Positions 10,491 through 21,838 of a stretch of 64,000 nucleotides of DNA are shown here, piece by piece (position 1 is the stretch's first letter; each line of letters begins with the position of its first letter). The DNA is from Paracoccaceae bacterium Fryx2. Lineage in GTDB: Bacteria > Pseudomonadota > Alphaproteobacteria > Rhodobacterales > Rhodobacteraceae. The stretch is taken from positions 744,001 through 808,000 of the forward strand of contig JAVSGI010000003.1 of the NCBI GenBank assembly GCA_032334235.1, given 5' to 3'. Made by a program: the position numbers and the translations under genes. A model generated the notes under the pieces. It had not been told where the DNA came from, did no database searches, and saw only the letters and a program-made list of their open reading frames with translations.

Positions 10491-11276
10491 ATGCAGAACC
10501 TGATAGAAATCAAGGGCGTGAGCCACGCCTACCGCACCCCGACCGGCCCGCTGCCGGTGCTGGACGGGCTGGACGTTTCGGTGCCCGAAGGCGAGTTCTG
10601 CGCGGTGGTCGGCCCTTCGGGCTGCGGCAAGTCCACCCTGACCCGGCTGATCGCCGGGCTGATGAAACCCGACCGGGGCGAGGTCTGGCTGCATGGCGAG
10701 CGCGTCACCTCGCCGCGCAAGACGGTCGGCATGGCGTTCCAGAACCCGGTGCTGCTGGAATGGCGGACCATCCTTGAAAACGTCATCCTGCCGCTGGAAA
10801 TCGTCGCCCCCAACATGGCTCGCAAGGACCGGGTGGCCCGGGCCATGCAACTGCTGGAAATGGTCGGGCTGAAGGGCTTCGAGACCAAGCGCCCCAGCCA
10901 GCTTTCGGGCGGGATGCGCCAGCGCGCGAGCCTCTGCCGCGCCATCGTCCACAAGCCCGACGTGCTGATCATGGATGAACCCTTCGGCGCGCTGGATGCC
11001 TTCACGCGCGAGGATCTGTGGCAGACCATGCGCGACCTGCGCGCGGCCGAACCCTTTACCTGCGTTCTGATCACCCATGACCTGCGCGAAAGCGTGTTTC
11101 TGGGGGATCAGGTGATCGTGCTGTCGGGCCGCCCGGCGCGCACCCAGCATGTGCTGGACGTGACCCTGCCCGCCGACCGCACGCTGGACGTGCTTTTCAC
11201 CCCTGCCGCGCAGGACATGCTGCACCTGCTGCGCGACCAGATCCGGATCGCGCAGGGCCGCGACGGGGGGCATTGA
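10491..11276 (+). CDS. ABC transporter ATP-binding protein (nitrate/sulfonate/taurine type)
   Basis: A 261-residue ATPase with Walker A GPSGCGKST at 41-49, signature LSGGMRQR, Walker B VLIMDEP and a switch His in LITHDL. It energises the NMT1-type importer from the cytosolic side. Its stop TGA overlaps the permease ATG by one base (TGATG), so translation is coupled. Confidence 0.88.
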   Translation: MQNLIEIKGVSHAYRTPTGPLPVLDGLDVSVPEGEFCAVVGPSGCGKSTLTRLIAGLMKPDRGEVWLHGERVTSPRKTVGMAFQNPVLLEWRTILENVILPLEIVAPNMARKDRVARAMQLLEMVGLKGFETKRPSQLSGGMRQRASLCRAIVHKPDVLIMDEPFGALDAFTREDLWQTMRDLRAAEPFTCVLITHDLRESVFLGDQVIVLSGRPARTQHVLDVTLPADRTLDVLFTPAAQDMLHLLRDQIRIAQGRDGGH

Positions 11277-13780: not shown

Positions 13781-15454
13781 GTGACGACACGGATCGTGGT
13801 GCTTGGGGGCGGCTTTGGCGGCATGTATGCCGCGCGGGCCCTGCAAAAGCGGCTGGGGGCCAGGGCCCATATCGAACTGGTCAATGCCGAGAACTACTTC
13901 GTCTTCCAGCCGCTGCTGCCAGAGGTGGGGGCAGGTTCCATCACCCCCGCCCATGCGGTTTCGCCGCTGCGGTTCCTGCTGCGCGATGTGGCGGTGCGCA
14001 AGGCCCTGGTGGAAAGCGTCGATTTCGACCGCAAGGTGGTGACGGTGTTCCAGGGCATCCAGAAGCGCCCGACCGAAGTGGCCTATGACCATCTGGTGAT
14101 CGCGCTGGGGCAGTCGGTGGACCTGTCGCGGATGCCGGGGCTGGAAGAACACGCGCTGAAGATGAAGACGCTGGAGGATGCCCGCCGCCTGCGCGGCCAT
14201 GTCATCGACCAACTGGAACATGCCCAGATCACCCAGTTGCCCGAGGTGAAACGCGCAGCCCTGACCTTCTGCGTGGTCGGCGGCGGCTTTTCCGGCGTCG
14301 AGACCGTGGGCGAGATGAAGGAGCTGATCGACCGGTCGCTGAAGTTCTACCCCGAGATCGACCCTGCGGAGGTGCGCGTCGTGGTGCTGGAGTTTGCCCA
14401 GCGTATCTTGGCCGAAATGCCGGAAAAGCTGGCGAAATACGCCGCCGACACGCTGGCGAAGCGCGGAATCGAGGTCAAGCTCGGCACCGGCGTGGCCAGC
14501 GCCACCGGCACCCAGCTTGTCACCTCGACCGGCGAGGTGATCGACACCCGCACCATCGTCGCCACCATCGGCAACGCGCCCTCGCCCGTGGTGCGCCGCA
14601 TGGCGCTGCCGTTCGAGCGCGGCCGCATCGCGGTGGAACGCACGCTGATGGTCAAGGGCCGCCCGGATGTCTGGGCGCTGGGCGACTGCGCGCTGATCGC
14701 CATGAAGGACGGCGCGTCGGAACCGAGCGACTATGCCCCGCCGACCGCGCAGTTCGCGGTGCGCGAGGCGCAGCTTGTGGCCGACAACATCGCGGCGGGG
14801 ATCGAAGGCGGCACGCCCAGGCCCTTCGTCTACAAGTCGCGCGGGGCGCTGGCCTCGCTCGGCGCGCAGCGCGGCATTGCCGAGGTGATGGGGGTTCAGC
14901 TGACCGGCTTTCCGGCCTGGCTGCTGTGGCGCCTTTACTACCTGGCATTCCTGCCCGGCATCACCACCCGGATTCAGGTGCTGCTGAACTGGTTCATGGA
15001 CGGGATCAGCCCGCGCAGCGTGGTGATGCTGCGGTCCTACACACCGCCCGCCGCGCGCTATGTGCATTTCCGCGCAGGCGACCGCATCTACGAGGTCGGC
15101 AACCGCTCTGACGGGTTCTACACGGTGGTCACGGGTGCGGTGGAAATGACGCGGCCCGACCCCGCGACCGGCGCGCCGGTGCTGCGGCGCATCGGGCCGG
15201 GCGAACATTTCGGTGAAAGCATGATCCTTGGCGCCACCCGCCGCCAGACCAGCGTGCGCGCGCTGGAAGATACCAAGGTGCTGGTGCTGCAGCGCGACGA
15301 GTTCCTGCGGCTGGTCGGCAGCTTCTCCGCCCTGCACGACTATTTCGAGCCCTACATGGCGCGTCACGGCAGCAAATGGCCGCCCGCCGACCTTGCCGGG
15401 CCGCAGGCGGTTCAGCCCGCCACGGCCACGGGCCAGGTGGCGGACAGGCGGTAG
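13781..15454 (+). CDS. NDH-2-like NAD(P)/FAD oxidoreductase fused to a cyclic-nucleotide-binding domain
   Basis: A 557-residue protein. Residues 1-370 form a two-dinucleotide-domain disulfide reductase fold: FAD site VVLGGGFGG at 7-15 and NAD site CVVGGGFSGVE near 165. A hydrophobic stretch around 375-410 fits the NDH-2 membrane-contact region. Residues about 425-540 resemble a CRP-type cNMP-binding domain with IGPGEHFGESMIL and RRQTSVRA, the phosphate-binding cassette. Type II NADH dehydrogenases pass electrons from NADH to quinone without pumping protons; the added domain suggests direct control by a nucleotide or a lipid-facing sensor. Start is GTG, preceded by GGGAG. Confidence 0.8.
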   Translation: MTTRIVVLGGGFGGMYAARALQKRLGARAHIELVNAENYFVFQPLLPEVGAGSITPAHAVSPLRFLLRDVAVRKALVESVDFDRKVVTVFQGIQKRPTEVAYDHLVIALGQSVDLSRMPGLEEHALKMKTLEDARRLRGHVIDQLEHAQITQLPEVKRAALTFCVVGGGFSGVETVGEMKELIDRSLKFYPEIDPAEVRVVVLEFAQRILAEMPEKLAKYAADTLAKRGIEVKLGTGVASATGTQLVTSTGEVIDTRTIVATIGNAPSPVVRRMALPFERGRIAVERTLMVKGRPDVWALGDCALIAMKDGASEPSDYAPPTAQFAVREAQLVADNIAAGIEGGTPRPFVYKSRGALASLGAQRGIAEVMGVQLTGFPAWLLWRLYYLAFLPGITTRIQVLLNWFMDGISPRSVVMLRSYTPPAARYVHFRAGDRIYEVGNRSDGFYTVVTGAVEMTRPDPATGAPVLRRIGPGEHFGESMILGATRRQTSVRALEDTKVLVLQRDEFLRLVGSFSALHDYFEPYMARHGSKWPPADLAGPQAVQPATATGQVADRR

Positions 15455-15466
15455 CCGCCGGGCCAG

Positions 15467-15510
15467 GGATCGCCGGGGGGCAAGACATGGCTGCTGCGCC
15501 CCGGCGATCC
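15467..15510. terminator. Bidirectional hairpin between convergent genes
   Basis: Perfect 12-bp inverted repeat (GGATCGCCGGGG and its complement) with a 20-base loop, just after the NDH-2-like gene and before the end of the opposing ABC operon. No T tract. Placement suggests a shared transcription end. Confidence 0.5.
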
Positions 15511-15591
15511 GGACGCGGCCGTTCGCCCTCGGCATGGCGGTTGATGATGTGGACCGACCGGGTGCTGCGCATGGGATGCCTTTCTGGCCGC

Positions 15592-16380
15592 TCAGGGCTG
15601 GTTGCGCCGTTGCAGCAGGCTGAAGCCCGCCAGCAGCGCGCCCGAAAAGACCACCAGCAGCACCGCCGCCGCCGCGATGGCCGGGCTGATCGATTCCCGC
15701 ACGCCCGAAAAGATCATCCGCGGCAGGGTGCGCTGTTCGGCGGTGGTCAGGTAGGTGGCGATCACCACCTCGTCGAACGAGATGATGAAGGCGATCACCG
15801 CCCCCGCCACGACACCGGGCGCGATCATCGGGATCAGCACGCGGCGGAACGCGGTCAGTGGCGGCGCGCCCAGCGACGCCGCCGCCCGCATCAGGCCACG
15901 GTCGAAGGCCTGCAGGCTGGCCAGCACCGTCGTCAGCACCACCGGCGCCGCCAGCCCGGCATGGGCCAGAATCAACCCGAAGCGCGACCCGAGCAGTCCC
16001 GACCGGGCCTGAAAGCTGAACGAGGCCACCGCGAGGATCACGATCGGCAGCACCAGCGGCGTGGCGATCACCGCCATCAGAACGCCCCGGCCGGGAAACC
16101 GGCCCCAGGCAAGGCCCACCGCGGCAGGCGTCGCCAGCGCCACCGCCAGCGCGGTCGACCCGGCCCCGACCAGCAGCGAGTTGCCCAGCGCTGCCGCCCA
16201 GCGCGGGTCGGTCAGCACCACCTCGAACCAGCGCAGCGACCAGCCCGGCACCGGGAAGGTCAGGTTGGTGCCCGAGGTCAGCGCCATAGGCACGATCACG
16301 AACAGCGGTGCCACCAGATAGGCCAGCACCAGCGCGGTCAGGCCGAACGCGGTCCAGCGGTGCAGCGTCTCGCCCCGCAT
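15592..16380 (-). CDS. ABC transporter permease (PotC-like)
   Basis: A 262-residue membrane protein with about six helices and an EAA-type loop (AASLGAPPLTAFRRVLIPMI). It belongs to the spermidine/putrescine importer class and is the second permease of the operon. Its ATG (16380) overlaps the upstream permease's stop by one base. It is the last gene; no ATPase follows, because the next gene is convergent. Confidence 0.85.
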   Translation of the reverse strand: MRGETLHRWTAFGLTALVLAYLVAPLFVIVPMALTSGTNLTFPVPGWSLRWFEVVLTDPRWAAALGNSLLVGAGSTALAVALATPAAVGLAWGRFPGRGVLMAVIATPLVLPIVILAVASFSFQARSGLLGSRFGLILAHAGLAAPVVLTTVLASLQAFDRGLMRAAASLGAPPLTAFRRVLIPMIAPGVVAGAVIAFIISFDEVVIATYLTTAEQRTLPRMIFSGVRESISPAIAAAAVLLVVFSGALLAGFSLLQRRNQP

Positions 16381-17600
16381 CACGCCACCCTGCCGCTGGC
16401 CAGCCTGCGGATCGCCGCCACCCCGGCCGCCGCCAGCGCCAGCACGGCCAGCAACTGGACCGACAGCGCCGCCGCCAGCCCCCAGTTCAGCGTCTTGTCG
16501 GTGTAGAACACGATGAAACTGCTCAGCATCTGGTCGCCCGGCCCGCCGATCAGCGTGGGGGTGATGTAGTAGCCGAGGGCAAACACGAACACGATGCCAG
16601 ACCCGGTCAGGATGCCGGGCAGGATCATCGGCAGTTGCACGCGCCGCCAGGCGGTGGCCCAGGGCGCGCCCAGCGACCGCGCCGCCCGCATGTAGGTCGG
16701 CGGGATGCGGCGCAGAACCGACAGGATCGGCAGGATCATCAGCGGCAGCAGCACCTGCACCATGGTGACCATCAGGCTGCCGCGGGTATAGACCAGCCGC
16801 AGCGGCTCTGTCACCGCGCCAAGCCAGATCAGCGTGGCATTCACCGGCCCCTCGCCCTGCAGCAGGATGATCCAGGCCACGGTCCGCACCAGGAGCGAGG
16901 TCCACAGCGGCAGCAGCACCATCGCCAGCAGCACCGAGGCCAGCCGCGCCGGGGCGGCCGCGATCACATGCGCCACCGGCAGCGCCAGCACCACGCAAAG
17001 CGCGGTCACGGCAAGGCTGATCGAGATTGTCCGCCACAGGATGGTCAGGAACAGCGCCGACTGCGGCGGCACGCGGCCGATGGTGCCATCGGCGCGGCGT
17101 TCCAGATCAAGGCTGGTCAGCAGGTAATAGGACGTGAACCGGCCCCGTTCATGCGCGATGACCGACCAGAGCGCGGGGTTTTCCCACCCTTTCGCCTCGG
17201 CCAGCACGGCGGGGCGGGTCTCGCCCGCCGCAAAGGCCCCGTCGGCGGCAAGGCGGGCGGTTTTCAGCACGAAGGTCCGCGTGCCCGGCACCGCCTGGTT
17301 GAGCCGCGCCGCCAGTCCCCCCGCGCGCCCGGCCGCCTGCGCGGCGGCAAGGTCGGCGACAAGCGCGGCAAAGGCCGGTTCGGGCGGCAGGCCATCGGCC
17401 ACCGTCCAGCCCGCAAGGGCGGCAGAGGTGGCCGCGAGGTTGGTCTGCAGATCGCGGTTGTCGATGGCGCGGAACAGGAACAGCGCCACCGGAATGATGA
17501 CGGTCACCACCACGAACAGCACCAGCGGTGCGACCATCAGCAACCAGGGAAGCTGCCCCCGGAGTGCCGCGCTGCGGCTTGCGGGGGCAGCGCCCGGCAT
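16380..17600 (-). CDS. ABC transporter permease (PotB-like)
   Basis: A 406-residue permease, longer than usual PotB because of a periplasmic insertion of about 120 residues between helix 1 (LLMVAPLVLFVVVTVIIPVA) and the core. The EAA-type loop is ARSLGAPWATAWRRVQLPMI. Partners with the PotC-like permease downstream and the binding protein upstream, whose stop touches its start (17600). The extended first loop is typical of some amine or opine-like importers in this class. Confidence 0.85.
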   Translation of the reverse strand: MPGAAPASRSAALRGQLPWLLMVAPLVLFVVVTVIIPVALFLFRAIDNRDLQTNLAATSAALAGWTVADGLPPEPAFAALVADLAAAQAAGRAGGLAARLNQAVPGTRTFVLKTARLAADGAFAAGETRPAVLAEAKGWENPALWSVIAHERGRFTSYYLLTSLDLERRADGTIGRVPPQSALFLTILWRTISISLAVTALCVVLALPVAHVIAAAPARLASVLLAMVLLPLWTSLLVRTVAWIILLQGEGPVNATLIWLGAVTEPLRLVYTRGSLMVTMVQVLLPLMILPILSVLRRIPPTYMRAARSLGAPWATAWRRVQLPMILPGILTGSGIVFVFALGYYITPTLIGGPGDQMLSSFIVFYTDKTLNWGLAAALSVQLLAVLALAAAGVAAIRRLASGRVA

Positions 17601-18640
17601 TACTGCGACAGCCAGGTCTTGAAGCGTTGTTCCAGAACCTCCTGATTTTCGGCCCAGAAGGCGGAATCATAGGCCGCGCCATAGCCGATCCGGTCGGGCG
17701 AGGTCGGCAGGCGGTCGCGCTGTTCGGCGGTCAGGAGGTCATAGACCCGGGAATCGCCGGTGCCATATCCGTAAAGCCGCGGGAAGCCCGCCTGGTTTTC
17801 CGGCACGGCAAAGAATTCCATGAAGGCGCGTGCGGCCTCGGCGTTGGGGGCGCCGGTCACCACCGCCCACATGTCGGTGCCATAGAAGAACCCGGCCTCC
17901 CAGGCGATCTTGTAGTTCTTGCCGTTGTTTTCATTGTCGAAAGTGATGCGGCCGTTGTACATGTCGGTCATCACGACCTCGCCCGCGTCAAGGTTCTGCA
18001 CGGCGGTCGAGGAACTGGTCCACCACACCACATGCGGCTTGATCTGGTCGAGCCGGGCAAAGGCGCGGTCAACGCCTTCGGGGGTGCGCAGCACGGTATA
18101 GACATCGGCAGGGGCCACGCCGTCGGACAGCAGCGCGTTTTCCAGTGTGTAAAGCGCCTGCCCCAACATGCCGCGCTTGCCGGGGAACTTCTCGACATCC
18201 CAGAAGTCGGCCCAGCTTTTCGGGCCATCGGCCAGCCTGTTGCCGTCATAGACCAGCACCGTGGCCCAGGTATCCGAGGCGATGCCGCAGGGGTGGAAGG
18301 TGCCGGGCAGGTAGTTGCCCTCTTGCGCCGCGACCGCTTCGGGCAGCTTTTCGAACAGCCCCTCGTCGCAGCCGATGGCCAGCTGCGGCGCCTCGACCGA
18401 GACCACGTCATAGCTGACACTGCCGCTTTCGGTCATGGCGCGGATGCGGGCCAGCGATCCGTCCCATTCGTCGATCGTCACCGCCGCGCCGCCCTGCGCG
18501 GTGAAGGGGTCGTATACCCCCGCCTTGTAGGCATCGTTCCAGCTTCCGCCCCATCCGACGATGGTGACAGTGCCTTCGGCCTGGGCGCCGGACGCAGCGC
18601 CCGCCAGGGCGATCGTGCAGAGCAATCTTGAAAGCCGCAT
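17600..18640 (-). CDS. PotD-like periplasmic substrate-binding protein
   Basis: A 346-residue protein with a signal peptide ending SGAQAEG (about 21). The tracts TIVGWGGSWNDAY, SYDVVSVEAPQLAIGCDEGL and VVWWTSSSTAVQNL are typical of spermidine/putrescine-type binding proteins, which often carry small cationic or amine ligands. First gene of the leftward three-gene importer. It shares the divergent promoter region with the aminotransferase gene, and one TTGATCAACTT motif sits 49-59 bases before its start. Ligand unknown. Confidence 0.85.
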   Translation of the reverse strand: MRLSRLLCTIALAGAASGAQAEGTVTIVGWGGSWNDAYKAGVYDPFTAQGGAAVTIDEWDGSLARIRAMTESGSVSYDVVSVEAPQLAIGCDEGLFEKLPEAVAAQEGNYLPGTFHPCGIASDTWATVLVYDGNRLADGPKSWADFWDVEKFPGKRGMLGQALYTLENALLSDGVAPADVYTVLRTPEGVDRAFARLDQIKPHVVWWTSSSTAVQNLDAGEVVMTDMYNGRITFDNENNGKNYKIAWEAGFFYGTDMWAVVTGAPNAEAARAFMEFFAVPENQAGFPRLYGYGTGDSRVYDLLTAEQRDRLPTSPDRIGYGAAYDSAFWAENQEVLEQRFKTWLSQ

Positions 18641-18686
18641 CGGAAGACCTTTCTGTTGGATGAATCGTTTCTGGTTTTCTGGAAAT

Positions 18687-18699
18687 AGTTGATCAACTT
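18687..18699. promoter_or_regulatory. Candidate GntR operator, copy 1
   Basis: AGTTGATCAACTT contains the perfect 12-base palindrome AGTTGATCAACT. It lies just upstream of the binding-protein gene. The 11-mer TTGATCAACTT recurs at 18876. Symmetric TTG-CAA sites of this size fit FadR-type GntR regulators, and such a regulator is encoded at 21128. Confidence 0.55.
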
Positions 18700-18875
18700 A
18701 CATGGCCTGTCAATCATCCGTTTCGAACCGGGTGACTGCGGGCGACTGCGGCCCGCACTCTGGCAATTTTCACTGCAGTATCGTTCGATTGCCGGTGATG
18801 ACAGGCATTCCGGCCCCGGATCGCCCGTCCTTTCAGCACATTCCGTTTGACAGGCCCGCCACCCGTTGCCATGAT

Positions 18876-18886
18876 TTGATCAACTT
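18876..18886. promoter_or_regulatory. Candidate GntR operator, copy 2
   Basis: Second exact TTGATCAACTT, 19 bases before the aminotransferase ATG, a position where bound repressor would block transcription or translation start. Same orientation as copy 1, 187 bases apart. Confidence 0.55.
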
Positions 18887-18905
18887 CAGTGAAGGATCGG
18901 CCGAC

Positions 18906-20219
18906 ATGCTGCGCAATGCCCACCTTGACGACGCCATCGCCGACGCGACCGCCCGCTACATCGCCGCCAACCCGAAAAGCGAAGCGCGGCATCACAAGGC
19001 GTGCGAAAGCCTGCCGGGGGGCAACACACGGTCGGTGCTGTGGTACGAGCCGTTTCCGGTAGCCGTGGTGAAAGGCGAGGGCGTGTATCTGACCGACCTC
19101 GACGGGCACCGCTATGCCGATTTCGTCAGCGAGTATTCCGCCGGGCTTTATGGCCATTCCGACCCGGTGATCATGGCGGCGATGATCGAGGCGGTGCAGA
19201 ACGGCGTGGCGCTCGGCGCGCCGAACATCCGCGAGGCGATGCTGGGCGAGGAACTGGTGTCGCGCTTTGCCGCGCTCGACCGGGTGCGGTTCTGCAATTC
19301 GGGCACCGAGGCCAACATCATGGCGCTGTCCACCGCCCGCGCCGTGACCGGGCGCGACCGGATCGTGGTGTTCCGCGAAGGCTATCATGGCGGCGTGCTG
19401 ACCTTTGCCCACGGCGGCTCGGTCCTGAACCTGCCGTTCCCCTGGCTGTTCGCAGACTACAACGACGTGGAGGGTACCGAGGCGCTGCTGCGCGCCAACA
19501 AGGACAGTATCGCCTCCGTCATCCTGGAACAGATGCTGGGCGGTGGCGGCTGCATCAGGGCGACGCCGCCCTTCCTTGCGATGCTGCGGCGGGTCACGCA
19601 GGACATCGGCGCGCTGCTGATCTTTGACGAGGTGATGACCTCGCGGCTGCACTTCAACGGAATGCAGGCCATCACCGGGGTCACGCCCGACCTGATGAGC
19701 CTGGGCAAGTACATCGGCGGCGGCGCCAGTTTCGGCGCCTTCGGCGGGCGGGCCGACATCATGGCGCGGTTCGACCCGGCATCCGATCACGCCTTCGGCC
19801 ATGGCGGCACCTTCAACAACAACATCATCAGCATGACGGCGGGCCATGCCGGGCTGTCGCAGGTGCTGACGCGGGAAGCCTCGGCCCGGTTCAACGCGCT
19901 GGGCGACCGGCTGCGCCTTGCCATGCAGGCGATGATTGATGCCCACGGCATCGCCGCCTGCATGACGGGCTGCGGGTCGCTGTTCAACCTGCACTTCCTG
20001 CCCGCCGATCAGGTGACCCCCGCCGCCGTCGAACACGCCGACCCCCGGCCCGGCAAGCTCTGGCATCTGGAGATGATGCTGGCGGGCCAGTATGTCACCC
20101 CGCGCGGCATGATCGCGCTGGCGCTGCCGCATGGCGAGACCGAGGCCGACGCGTTCCTTGCGGCGTTCGAGCGGTTCCTGACCGACCACCGGACGATCCT
20201 GCCGGGGGTGGCGGGGTGA
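18906..20219 (+). CDS. Class III aminotransferase, glutamate-1-semialdehyde-aminotransferase-like (possible beta-amino acid aminotransferase)
   Basis: A 437-residue PLP enzyme. PLP lysine is Lys268 in SLGKYIGGG, the cofactor Asp is Asp241 in IFDEVM, and SGTEAN at 132-137 holds the phosphate. GGNTRSVL at 38-45 places an Arg (42) where, from memory, beta-phenylalanine aminotransferases bind the substrate carboxylate; true GSA mutases work in heme synthesis, which has no neighbours here. The next gene encodes a beta-keto acid cleavage enzyme, so I infer that this enzyme makes a beta-keto acid from a beta-amino acid. ATG 18906 is chosen because the long upstream extension is noncoding promoter region. 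Confidence 0.8.
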   Translation: MLRNAHLDDAIADATARYIAANPKSEARHHKACESLPGGNTRSVLWYEPFPVAVVKGEGVYLTDLDGHRYADFVSEYSAGLYGHSDPVIMAAMIEAVQNGVALGAPNIREAMLGEELVSRFAALDRVRFCNSGTEANIMALSTARAVTGRDRIVVFREGYHGGVLTFAHGGSVLNLPFPWLFADYNDVEGTEALLRANKDSIASVILEQMLGGGGCIRATPPFLAMLRRVTQDIGALLIFDEVMTSRLHFNGMQAITGVTPDLMSLGKYIGGGASFGAFGGRADIMARFDPASDHAFGHGGTFNNNIISMTAGHAGLSQVLTREASARFNALGDRLRLAMQAMIDAHGIAACMTGCGSLFNLHFLPADQVTPAAVEHADPRPGKLWHLEMMLAGQYVTPRGMIALALPHGETEADAFLAAFERFLTDHRTILPGVAG

Positions 20220-21106
20220 TGCGGCCGGTCATCATCACCTGTGCGCTGACCGGCGACAGCGACACCCCCGGCCGCAGCCCGCATGTCCCGGTCACCCCGT
20301 CGCAGATCGCCGCCGATGCGCTGGCCGCCGCCGCGGCCGGGGCCGCGATCGTTCATGTCCATGTCCGCGACCCGATCAGCGGCAAGGGCAGCCGCGATCT
20401 GGCGCTGTACCGAGAGGTTGCCGAGGCCATCGCCGCCGCCGGGTCGGATGTGATCGTCAACCTGACGGCCGGCATGGGCGGCAAGCTGATCTTCGGCGGC
20501 GAGACGCCGCTGCCTGCCGACCCCGGCAGCGATCTGATGGGGCCCGCCGCCCGGATGGCCCATATCGAGGCGCTGCGCCCCGAGATGTGCAGCCTCGACT
20601 GCGGCAGCTTCAATTCCGGCATGGGCGACGAGGTCTATGTCAGCACCGCGCCGATGGTGTTGCAGATGGCGGAGAGGATGCGCGATCTGGGCGTGAAGCC
20701 CGAGCTGGAGGTGTTCGATTTCGGCCACATGCGCCTTGCCTGCCATCTGGTGGCGCAGGGGCTCGTCGCCCCGCCACCGCTGTTCCAGTTCGCGCTTGGC
20801 CTGCGCTGGGGTGCGCCGTCGGATGCGGCCACGCTGTTGCAATTGCGCGCCATGCTGCCCGCGGGCGCGCAGTGGGTGGCCTTCGGCGCCGGGGCCGAAC
20901 AGTTCCCGGTGGCGGCGCAGTCGGTGCTGCTGGGCGGCCATGTCCGCGTCGGGCTGGAGGACAACCTGTTCCGGCGGCGCGGGGTGCTTGCCAGCAATGC
21001 CGAACTTGTCGAAGATGCGGTCCGTCTGGTGGAAACGCTGGGGAATCGGGCGGCCTCTTCATCGGAGGCGCGGGCGATCCTCGGGCTTGACCGGCCGTCG
21101 CGCTGA
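20219..21106 (+). CDS. Beta-keto acid cleavage enzyme (BKACE, DUF849)
   Basis: A 295-residue TIM-barrel protein. VHVHVRD gives zinc ligands His46 and His48 at the same numbers as in Kce, the lysine-fermentation prototype. BKACEs condense a beta-keto acid with acetyl-CoA to give acetoacetate and a new acyl-CoA. Position 14, which in Kce is a Glu contacting the substrate amine (from memory), is Ser here (TGDSDTPG), so 3-keto-5-aminohexanoate is an unlikely substrate. ATG overlaps the aminotransferase stop by one base (TGATG), so the two are translated together. Confidence 0.85.
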   Translation: MRPVIITCALTGDSDTPGRSPHVPVTPSQIAADALAAAAAGAAIVHVHVRDPISGKGSRDLALYREVAEAIAAAGSDVIVNLTAGMGGKLIFGGETPLPADPGSDLMGPAARMAHIEALRPEMCSLDCGSFNSGMGDEVYVSTAPMVLQMAERMRDLGVKPELEVFDFGHMRLACHLVAQGLVAPPPLFQFALGLRWGAPSDAATLLQLRAMLPAGAQWVAFGAGAEQFPVAAQSVLLGGHVRVGLEDNLFRRRGVLASNAELVEDAVRLVETLGNRAASSSEARAILGLDRPSR

Positions 21107-21127
21107 CCTGCAAACGAAAGCCATCCG

Positions 21128-21838
21128 ATGCCCGACGAGCACGCCGACCCCGGCACCACCCACAGCTTCGAGCCGGTCTACCATGCGCTGCGCCGGGCGA
21201 TCATGTGCGGCGACATCATGCCGGGAGAGCGCATGGTAGTGAAGCGTCTGTCCGAGCGCTTTCACACCAGCGCCCTGCCGGTGCGCCAGGCACTGCAACG
21301 GCTGGTGGCCGAGGGGGCGCTGATCGACCGGCCCTACTACGGTGCCGAAGTGCCGGTGCTGGATGTCGAGGCGGTGATGGACCTGCGCCGCGTGCGTTGC
21401 GCGCTGGAAGGCCAGGCCGCCGAATGGGCGGCGCAAACCATCACGCCCACCGCCCTGGACCAGTTGCACCAGCTTCAGGCCCGGATGCAGGCCACGACCG
21501 ACCCGGCCCATGCCGAAGCCTATCTGGCCTGGAACCTCGAATTCCACTTCACGGTCTACAAGGCAGCCGGGTCGCCGCTGATCCTGCCGTTGATCGAAAG
21601 CCTGTGGCTCAGGGTCGGCCCCTGCCTGAACGTGATGCGGACAGAGACCACCCTCGGCCTTGGCCTTGACCATCATGACGATGTGCTGGCCGCCCTGACC
21701 CGCGGCGACGGCACCGCCGCCCGCGCAGCCGTGGTGGCCGAACTGACAGAGGCCGCCGAGGTCATGGCCCGCTCGCTGCGCAGCTACACGCCGGACCCGG
21801 CGCTGCGCCGCCGCAGCGGCCGCAGCCGGGCCGAATGA
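21128..21838 (+). CDS. GntR-family regulator with FCD ligand domain
   Basis: A 236-residue protein: winged helix at about 15-80 (YHALRRAIMCGDIMPGERMV, then LPVRQALQRL) and an all-helical FCD domain from about 90 with metal-binding His candidates in EFHFTVYKAAG and DHHDD. It lies 21 bases after the BKACE gene in the same operon. It probably represses its own operon and the divergent importer through the two TTGATCAACTT sites, with a pathway metabolite as inducer. These targets are inferred. Confidence 0.85.
   Translation: MPDEHADPGTTHSFEPVYHALRRAIMCGDIMPGERMVVKRLSERFHTSALPVRQALQRLVAEGALIDRPYYGAEVPVLDVEAVMDLRRVRCALEGQAAEWAAQTITPTALDQLHQLQARMQATTDPAHAEAYLAWNLEFHFTVYKAAGSPLILPLIESLWLRVGPCLNVMRTETTLGLGLDHHDDVLAALTRGDGTAARAAVVAELTEAAEVMARSLRSYTPDPALRRRSGRSRAE

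Follow-up and report, generated by a model that had tools for sequence, protein, structure and literature searches.

What does a bacterium do with a set of neighbouring genes for an importer, a BKACE, an aminotransferase (AT) of class III and a regulator of the GntR/FCD type? The question is raised by a locus of Paracoccaceae bacterium Fryx2, located in a stretch of 64,000 nucleotides (contig JAVSGI010000003.1, positions 744,001 to 808,000 of the forward strand) that is called the window here. A first reading of the window had placed a PotD-type importer operon divergently from an operon for AT, BKACE and GntR regulator, and the six genes were indeed found at these positions and on these strands, with 265 bases between the two operons:

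15592..16380, minus strand: permease C of an ATP-binding cassette (ABC) importer, PotC-like (BPD_transp_1, 49.9 bits; PotC model, 132 bits, cut-off 326)
16380..17600, minus strand: PotB-like permease B of the ABC importer, extended at the N terminus by a long additional part (family score 28.7 bits)
17600..18640, minus strand: periplasmic solute-binding protein (SBP) of the PotD/opine/gamma-aminobutyric acid (GABA)-binding kind (SBP_bac_8, 138.4 bits)
18688..18697, no strand: palindrome GTTGATCAAC, operator-like, upstream of the SBP gene
18875..18884, no strand: palindrome TTTGATCAAC, a second operator-like site, upstream of the AT gene
18906..20219, plus strand: predicted class III beta-amino acid AT of the MesAT/VpAT group (Aminotran_3, 175.1 bits, cut-off 30.5)
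20219..21106, plus strand: BKACE (PF05853, 327.8 bits, gathering cut-off 24.8)
21128..21838, plus strand: GntR/FCD regulator (FCD, 80.9 bits, cut-off 24.3; GntR, 48.4 bits, cut-off 27)

Stop and start overlap between the SBP and permease B genes, between those of permeases B and C, and between those of the AT and the BKACE. The answer proposed here, to which a probability of about 0.77 is given, is that the genes form a module for the uptake and breakdown of a beta-amino acid. The module is real, is kept by several relatives and constitutes a new pairing of known kinds of enzyme. Its genes, their co-inheritance, the conserved intergenic sites and the active-site residues were read directly from the sequences compared; the window locus is designated W in these comparisons, and the other loci carry labels of the type L003.

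The best solved relatives of the window AT are MesAT (6iz9 and 2yku, 408 and 407 bits) and VpAT (4ao9, 395 bits), followed by 6k8h at 259 bits and by glutamate-1-semialdehyde (GSA) aminomutases at no more than 199 bits. In the original prediction the enzyme was called GSA-like and was said to carry a motif, GGNTRSVL, with an Arg at the place where beta-amino acid ATs hold the substrate carboxylate. The motif is present and its Arg aligns with Arg41 of VpAT, the carboxylate ligand in a motif that also comprises V43, E75 and Y76 (PMC9850050; this and the other papers cited by PMC number are drawn on through excerpts). Alignment showed that R41, V43, E75, Y76, K267 and R398 (VpAT numbering) are kept in the window AT. 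The term GSA-like stands for family resemblance and no more, since the enzyme scores 265.4 bits with the HemL equivalog of NCBIfam, which has a cut-off of 527.3 bits. By its sequence, the window AT belongs to the beta-amino acid transaminases of the MesAT/VpAT kind, with Arg41, Glu75, Tyr76, Lys267 and Arg398 in common with these closest solved relatives. It differs from them in belonging to a separate, BKACE-linked clade and in having Gly at column 298, where MesAT has Ala and VpAT has Ser. This Gly was seen in all 12 ATs of the clade and in that of L086, and elsewhere among the 85 loci compared only in L030 and L274.

The resemblance to VpAT also bears on the kind of substrate. The nearest characterised ATs act on beta-phenylalanine, V43 and Y76 contact the ring in VpAT (PMC9850050), and some BKACEs accept benzoylacetate (PMC4922564, Table 7), all of which would fit breakdown of an aromatic beta-amino acid (beta-phenylalanine or beta-tyrosine) to benzoyl-CoA. 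The same motif does not exclude aliphatic substrates (PMC9850050), however, and BoxB, an aerobic benzoyl-CoA enzyme, was not found in 10 of the 11 genomes searched, some of them incomplete and the window genome among the ten. An aromatic substrate is thus quite improbable, and the route from beta-phenylalanine to benzoyl-CoA was set aside.

Lysine fermentation offers a precedent for a BKACE (Kce) and a HemL-like class III AT (Kat) in one cluster. Kat, which is annotated as HemL-like at the kal locus of such clusters, is restricted to thioesters (PMC3149608), so an AT that uses a CoA ester and accompanies a Kce, or alternatively a plain GSA aminomutase, had to be considered. Either is very improbable for the window AT. 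Kat shares just 24 % identity with the Mesorhizobium enzyme (PMC3149608). The window AT, in contrast, has that enzyme and VpAT as its closest relatives and keeps their carboxylate Arg; it stays below the HemL equivalog cut-off, and the window BKACE, with 243.5 bits, stays below that of Kce. Kce, moreover, has Glu14 and Tyr145, where the window BKACE has Ser and Phe.

The window BKACE keeps the Zn ligands H46, H48 and E230 as well as R226 and D231, as judged by alignment. That it lacks the Glu14 of Kce, as had been predicted, was borne out: Ser occupies the Glu14 position of CcaKce, and Phe that of Tyr145. The excerpt of PMC12871164 states that all BKACEs have Tyr145 and that loss of this Tyr in BsfD may accompany a different reaction. 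BsfD (flavophos biosynthesis, 9zsc) has three features in common with the window BKACE: Phe (its Phe166) in place of Tyr145, a loop inserted behind strand 3, and a basic residue 91 (PMC12871164). It would be conceivable, then, that the window BKACE acetylates a beta-keto acid with acetyl-CoA and that the adduct decarboxylates to a beta-diketone, in which case the module would make a product and there would be no breakdown. This is a long shot. BsfD differs in gene context; the importer and the regulator fit uptake; Tyr-type BKACEs, too, are partners of this AT clade; and Phe145 and the loop are found in BKACEs beside carnitine 3-dehydrogenase genes, so Phe145 is not by itself a sign of BsfD chemistry.

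The last point can be made within the genome itself, in which a second BKACE with Phe145 (L031:6618-8959, minus strand) lies beside a carnitine 3-dehydrogenase (764 bits, cut-off 592). All 66 tabulated proteins of the window BKACE subfamily, the window enzyme counted, have Phe145, and for 34 of them the surrounding stretch contains a match to carnitine dehydrogenase. In P. aeruginosa dehydrocarnitine is converted by a BKACE (PMC12482172). The L031 operon likely cleaves dehydrocarnitine too, and its BKACE, a Phe145 enzyme, runs counter to the claim of a universal Tyr in BKACEs. Acetyl-CoA-dependent cleavage would be the likeliest reaction of the window BKACE as well.

Breakdown of a beta-amino acid, with transport, both reactions and repression as we infer them, would proceed as follows. 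The PotD-type SBP and the two permeases would import the compound, with an ATPase that probably comes from elsewhere. The AT would pass the beta-amino group to an alpha-keto acid, leaving an unstable beta-keto acid, which the BKACE, the product of the overlapping next gene, would take up before CO2 is lost. With acetyl-CoA the BKACE would convert it into acetoacetate and an acyl-CoA that is two carbons shorter. The GntR/FCD protein, bound to two TTGATCAA sites, would keep both operons shut as long as neither the substrate nor the keto acid is present. On sequence grounds this route from AT to BKACE, which the first reading had also proposed, is likely.

The strongest sign that AT and BKACE probably act in series is that their pairing recurs across branches and subfamilies. 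The 85 AT loci compared were W, four named records, 11 loci from a family search, 66 of the 67 non-window places from a class search and three from a phylum search, one of which (L136) is the 67th class place. Open reading frames (ORFs) of the fetched loci were called with a custom script, based on length and third-position GC, and not with a gene finder. A tree of 59 loci plus MesAT and VpAT and a quick tree of all 85 loci gave a clade of 12 ATs around the window enzyme, with support of 100/99 and 99, respectively. One member, L006, with 1.1 kb on each side, was set aside; L006 and L009, of 3,466 bases each, look like one contig. A BKACE was present within 10 kb of the AT in nine of the 11 informative clade loci (W, L003, L005, L020, L061, L062, L063, L064 and L134), as against eight of 73 outside the clade (L022, L086, L255, L261, L263, L265, L268 and L274). 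The latter include two weak cases, a 35 % match at 7.8 kb in L261 and a 154-residue match at 7.0 kb in L274. Fisher's exact test on this contrast gives p 3e-6, a value that overstates the case because loci within the clade are kin and the rows are not independent. As 21 of the 85 loci have less than 5 kb on one side, absence of a BKACE is weak evidence there. BKACE matches occur at a density of about 0.77 per Mb over 12 genomes, which amounts to some 0.016 expected per 21-kb stretch or locus, so the pairing exceeds chance.

Co-inheritance extends to the other genes. AT, BKACE and a GntR protein with at least 49 % identity to that of the window occur together in eight loci (W, L003, L005, L020, L061, L063, L064 and L134), and the importer is present in six of these, L005 and L020 being the two without it. 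Lack of joint conservation had been named as a finding that would speak against the original prediction; the set is conserved, if patchily, and the prediction as a whole is partly supported. The partners of the AT clade come from two BKACE subfamilies that are about 32 % identical to each other. W, L003, L005, L020 and L062 have a Phe145 enzyme, and L061, L063, L064 and L134 have a Tyr145 enzyme with about 32 % identity to the window BKACE; those of L061 and L134 pass NCBI model NF053538. Outside the clade, L086 combines an AT with a 44 % identical SBP, a Tyr-type BKACE and a 40 % identical GntR protein. On another AT branch, L263, L265 and L268 carry a Tyr-subfamily relative of the L061 BKACE at 1.3-2.4 kb, which possibly represents a sister pathway for another substrate. 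The ATs of these three loci have Gly43, Ala76 and Ser298 instead of the usual residues. A separate pairing is seen in L183:4651-6888 (plus strand), in which a Sphaerobacter-type beta-transaminase gene (best chain 6k8h) directly precedes that of a BKACE with Arg91.

The intergenic palindromes link regulator and operons. The TTGATCAA palindrome is present twice between the divergent operons of the window, and upstream of the AT gene in six relatives (L003, L005, L061, L063, L064 and L134). Each of these has two copies in the divergent intergenic region, except L064, which, unlike W, has one. Exact palindromes thus precede the AT gene in seven of the eight loci with a W-like GntR gene, and L020 has forms with one mismatch. 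Over all 85 loci, a TTGATCAA site within 600 bases upstream of the AT was found in eight: W, the six relatives and L024. The last goes against the pattern: its locus has no BKACE and a single site, about 0.3 kb from the AT. Of the 68 loci that lack a BKACE, 15 show single or scattered sites. No TTGATCAA site was seen in the divergent intergenic region of L004, which is without GntR and BKACE genes, nor anywhere in loci L062, L086 and L022. With one mismatch allowed, GTTGATCAAC was found five times in the window, with 1.08 expected, and two of the five are the intergenic sites. A wider pattern has nine sites in the genome, among which AGTTGATCAACT occurs once and no further regulon was seen: the seven sites outside the region lie within ORFs or, in L231 and L233, between two transposase-like ORFs (named by eye). 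The GntR/FCD protein is a probable repressor of both divergent operons, as these sites suggest.

The importer belongs to the PotABCD-type family by its SBP and two permeases, none of which reaches the equivalog cut-off for PotB, PotC or PotD; permease B scores 131 bits with the PotB model (cut-off 348), a match confined to residues 182-389. The best chains for the SBP are 4i1d, 5l9g (MotA) and 6hly (agropine). The labels of its solved relatives name mannopine, agropine and GABA in addition to polyamines, and a reading of the importer as one for amines over amino acids found no support in this range. No ATPase gene is present within the importer operon. The nearest one (10491-11276, plus strand) is placed with another permease, and four genes elsewhere in the genome exceed the potA cut-off. 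W-like genes for the SBP and both permeases are divergent from the AT gene in W, L003, L004, L061, L063, L064 and L134. In L134 (L134:8682-13262) an unbroken row of genes encodes AT, GntR, an ATPase of the PotA family (369 bits, cut-off 355.6), BKACE and a thioesterase, with the importer divergent, and in L086 a relative of this thioesterase (43 %) follows the BKACE. The shared palindromes, together with the presence of ATPase and thioesterase genes in the L134 AT operon, make the regulator, the importer and the enzymes appear to be a single unit.

Position 91 of the BKACE gives a clue to the nature of the substrate. Arg91 of BsfD sits near the phosphonate (PMC12871164), and the window BKACE has Lys in this column. 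The column was surveyed in 66 BKACEs, namely 60 fetched from 112 BKACE places plus W, L003, L005, L020, L062 and L031; W, L062 and L031 belong to the 112 places, 49 of which lie outside the table. Asp or Glu was found in 42, Arg in 15, Lys in five and another residue in four. The window BKACE clade is, in the tree, sister to BKACEs that mostly adjoin carnitine dehydrogenase, and 33 of the 34 BKACEs with a nearby match to that enzyme have Asp or Glu at position 91 (the exception, L197, has Arg91 and a 30 % match). Lys91 was found in exactly the five Phe-type BKACEs that are linked to the AT clade (5/5). Since Lys is present here and Asp or Glu near carnitine dehydrogenase, the best guess is that the substrate would have a negative distal group, as beta-glutamate and 3-aminoadipate have. 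This reading of charge is limited by L183 and L226, in which BKACEs with Arg91 lie near other ATs. The BKACEs of L184 and L207 have Arg91 too and are found close to genes for TctA-like tricarboxylate carriers (named by eye), a setting that would be in keeping with anionic substrates.

A module dedicated to beta-amino dicarboxylates, above all to the archaeal osmolyte beta-glutamate, would import the compound, transaminate it to 3-oxoglutarate and cleave this with acetyl-CoA to malonyl-CoA and acetoacetate. So specific an assignment is doubtful. If it were true, Asp or Lys at position 91 of the BKACE would mark a switch between cationic and anionic substrates.

The sister position of the carnitine-type BKACEs would favour the opposite, namely catabolism of a cationic or N-acylated beta-amino acid such as beta-lysine, N6-acetyl-beta-lysine or aminocarnitine. 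Old work on beta-lysine and N6-acetyl-beta-lysine in Pseudomonas reportedly followed the same logic; we know of no sequence for that route. The L134 thioesterase, of which L086 has a relative, shows a weak match (22.8 bits) to the model for carnitine 3-dehydrogenase, in its C-terminal part, and C45-type acyl hydrolase genes are found in L061, L063 and L064. A cationic substrate is at variance with Lys91 in all five clade-linked Phe-type BKACEs, set against the Asp or Glu of the carnitine type. As to N-acylation, one GNAT-like ORF was noted by eye at about 8 kb from the L134 AT, acetyltransferases not having been searched for. Substrates of this class are unlikely. An Asp beside the Glu14 position was tried as a sign of cation binding and dropped, as the carnitine-operon paralogue of the same genome is without it. 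Tyr-type BKACEs near a carnitine-dehydrogenase-like gene (36-38 %) also exist, in L103, L104, L105, L107 and L120.

Several observations weigh against a beta-amino acid module or against a single substrate for it. The Lys91 group is a single tree branch and therefore represents one evolutionary event, and the Tyr-type partners lack the loop that bears position 91, which leaves room for a different substrate in each of the two pairings. The Phe145, the loop and the basic residue 91 are the very features that PMC12871164 ties to the different chemistry of BsfD. L004 has AT and importer with no BKACE or GntR gene nearby, and the AT of L021 is accompanied by neither a BKACE nor a GntR gene nor a close relative of the importer. 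Outside the clade, 65 of 73 ATs are without a BKACE in the stretch examined; beta-transamination does not, therefore, generally need one nearby. The spread is thin: at E 1e-60 an AT relative was found in 13 of 394 family genomes, and the 61 of 385 genomes with one at 1e-100 in the class search mostly fall outside this clade. The BKACE of L022 also has a 37 % carnitine-dehydrogenase-like neighbour and may belong elsewhere. Finally, a dehydratase-like gene that shares the palindrome in L005 is at variance with a simple route for a beta-amino acid, and the module does not account for the proline-racemase-like gene of L003 and L005 or for its remnant in the window:

15433..15572, minus strand: remnant of a proline-racemase-family gene of the trans-3-hydroxy-L-proline dehydratase type (tblastn with the L003 protein)

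The remnant, behind permease C, keeps the first 17 codons (15572-15522, 59 %, E 0.004) and a C-terminal piece of 23 residues (15501-15433, 65 %, E 1.7e-5); the middle is lost and the frames differ. A search of the genome for a dehydratase-type gene gave no match except this remnant. The intact relatives in L003 and L005 pass NF047722 (trans-3-hydroxy-L-proline dehydratase) with 621 and 581 bits (cut-off 550). The L005 copy takes the place of the importer: it is oriented divergently from the AT gene and is likewise preceded by the palindrome. The L005 record, CP059262.1, is labelled as a metagenome-assembled genome of Exiguobacterium profundum; its genes at this locus share 64-74 % identity with those of the window or of L003 (Rhodobacter sp.), and the label is probably wrong.

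Other accessory genes vary by locus. FAD oxidoreductases are encoded in L005, L020, L064, L086 and L134, EutQ-like cupins in L086 and L134, C45 autoproteolytic acyl hydrolases in L061, L063 and L064, ChaC-like proteins in L061 and L064, and Dpp-type importers in L005, L020 and L063. The C45 hydrolases and ChaC-like proteins may release the amino acid from amides. The variation suggests different ways of amino acid release and perhaps different substrates.

Carnitine breakdown, by carnitine 3-dehydrogenase, BKACE and thioesterase, is a known system in which a beta-keto acid is likewise made and then cleaved with acetyl-CoA. Its BKACEs form the sister clade of the window BKACE and have the same Phe145 and loop; it differs in that the keto acid arises by oxidation instead of transamination and that position 91 holds Asp or Glu instead of Lys. 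The same two-step logic, with a beta-alanine:pyruvate transaminase and a BKACE, was built by hand into E. coli as a module of the CORE cycle, a synthetic construct with malonate semialdehyde as the substrate and a different transaminase (PMC11961710). For a natural AT and BKACE route from a free beta-amino acid, no description was found among the matches listed from the open-licence literature, at the level of titles and the starts of abstracts.

Beta-transaminases have been studied as industrial catalysts. In beta-phenylalanine degraders, the fate of the beta-keto acid that they produce has been called uncertain (PMC6150868). The module suggests a concrete natural answer to this question and supplies a gene set for testing it. 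The route would broaden the known substrates of BKACEs and would give a sequence rule, at position 91, for the charge of the substrate. Beta-glutamate is present at 730 mM inside Nitrosopumilus maritimus and was higher in deep than in surface water in two ocean profiles (PMC8269262). Should this be the substrate of the module, its carriers would be candidate consumers of the compound.

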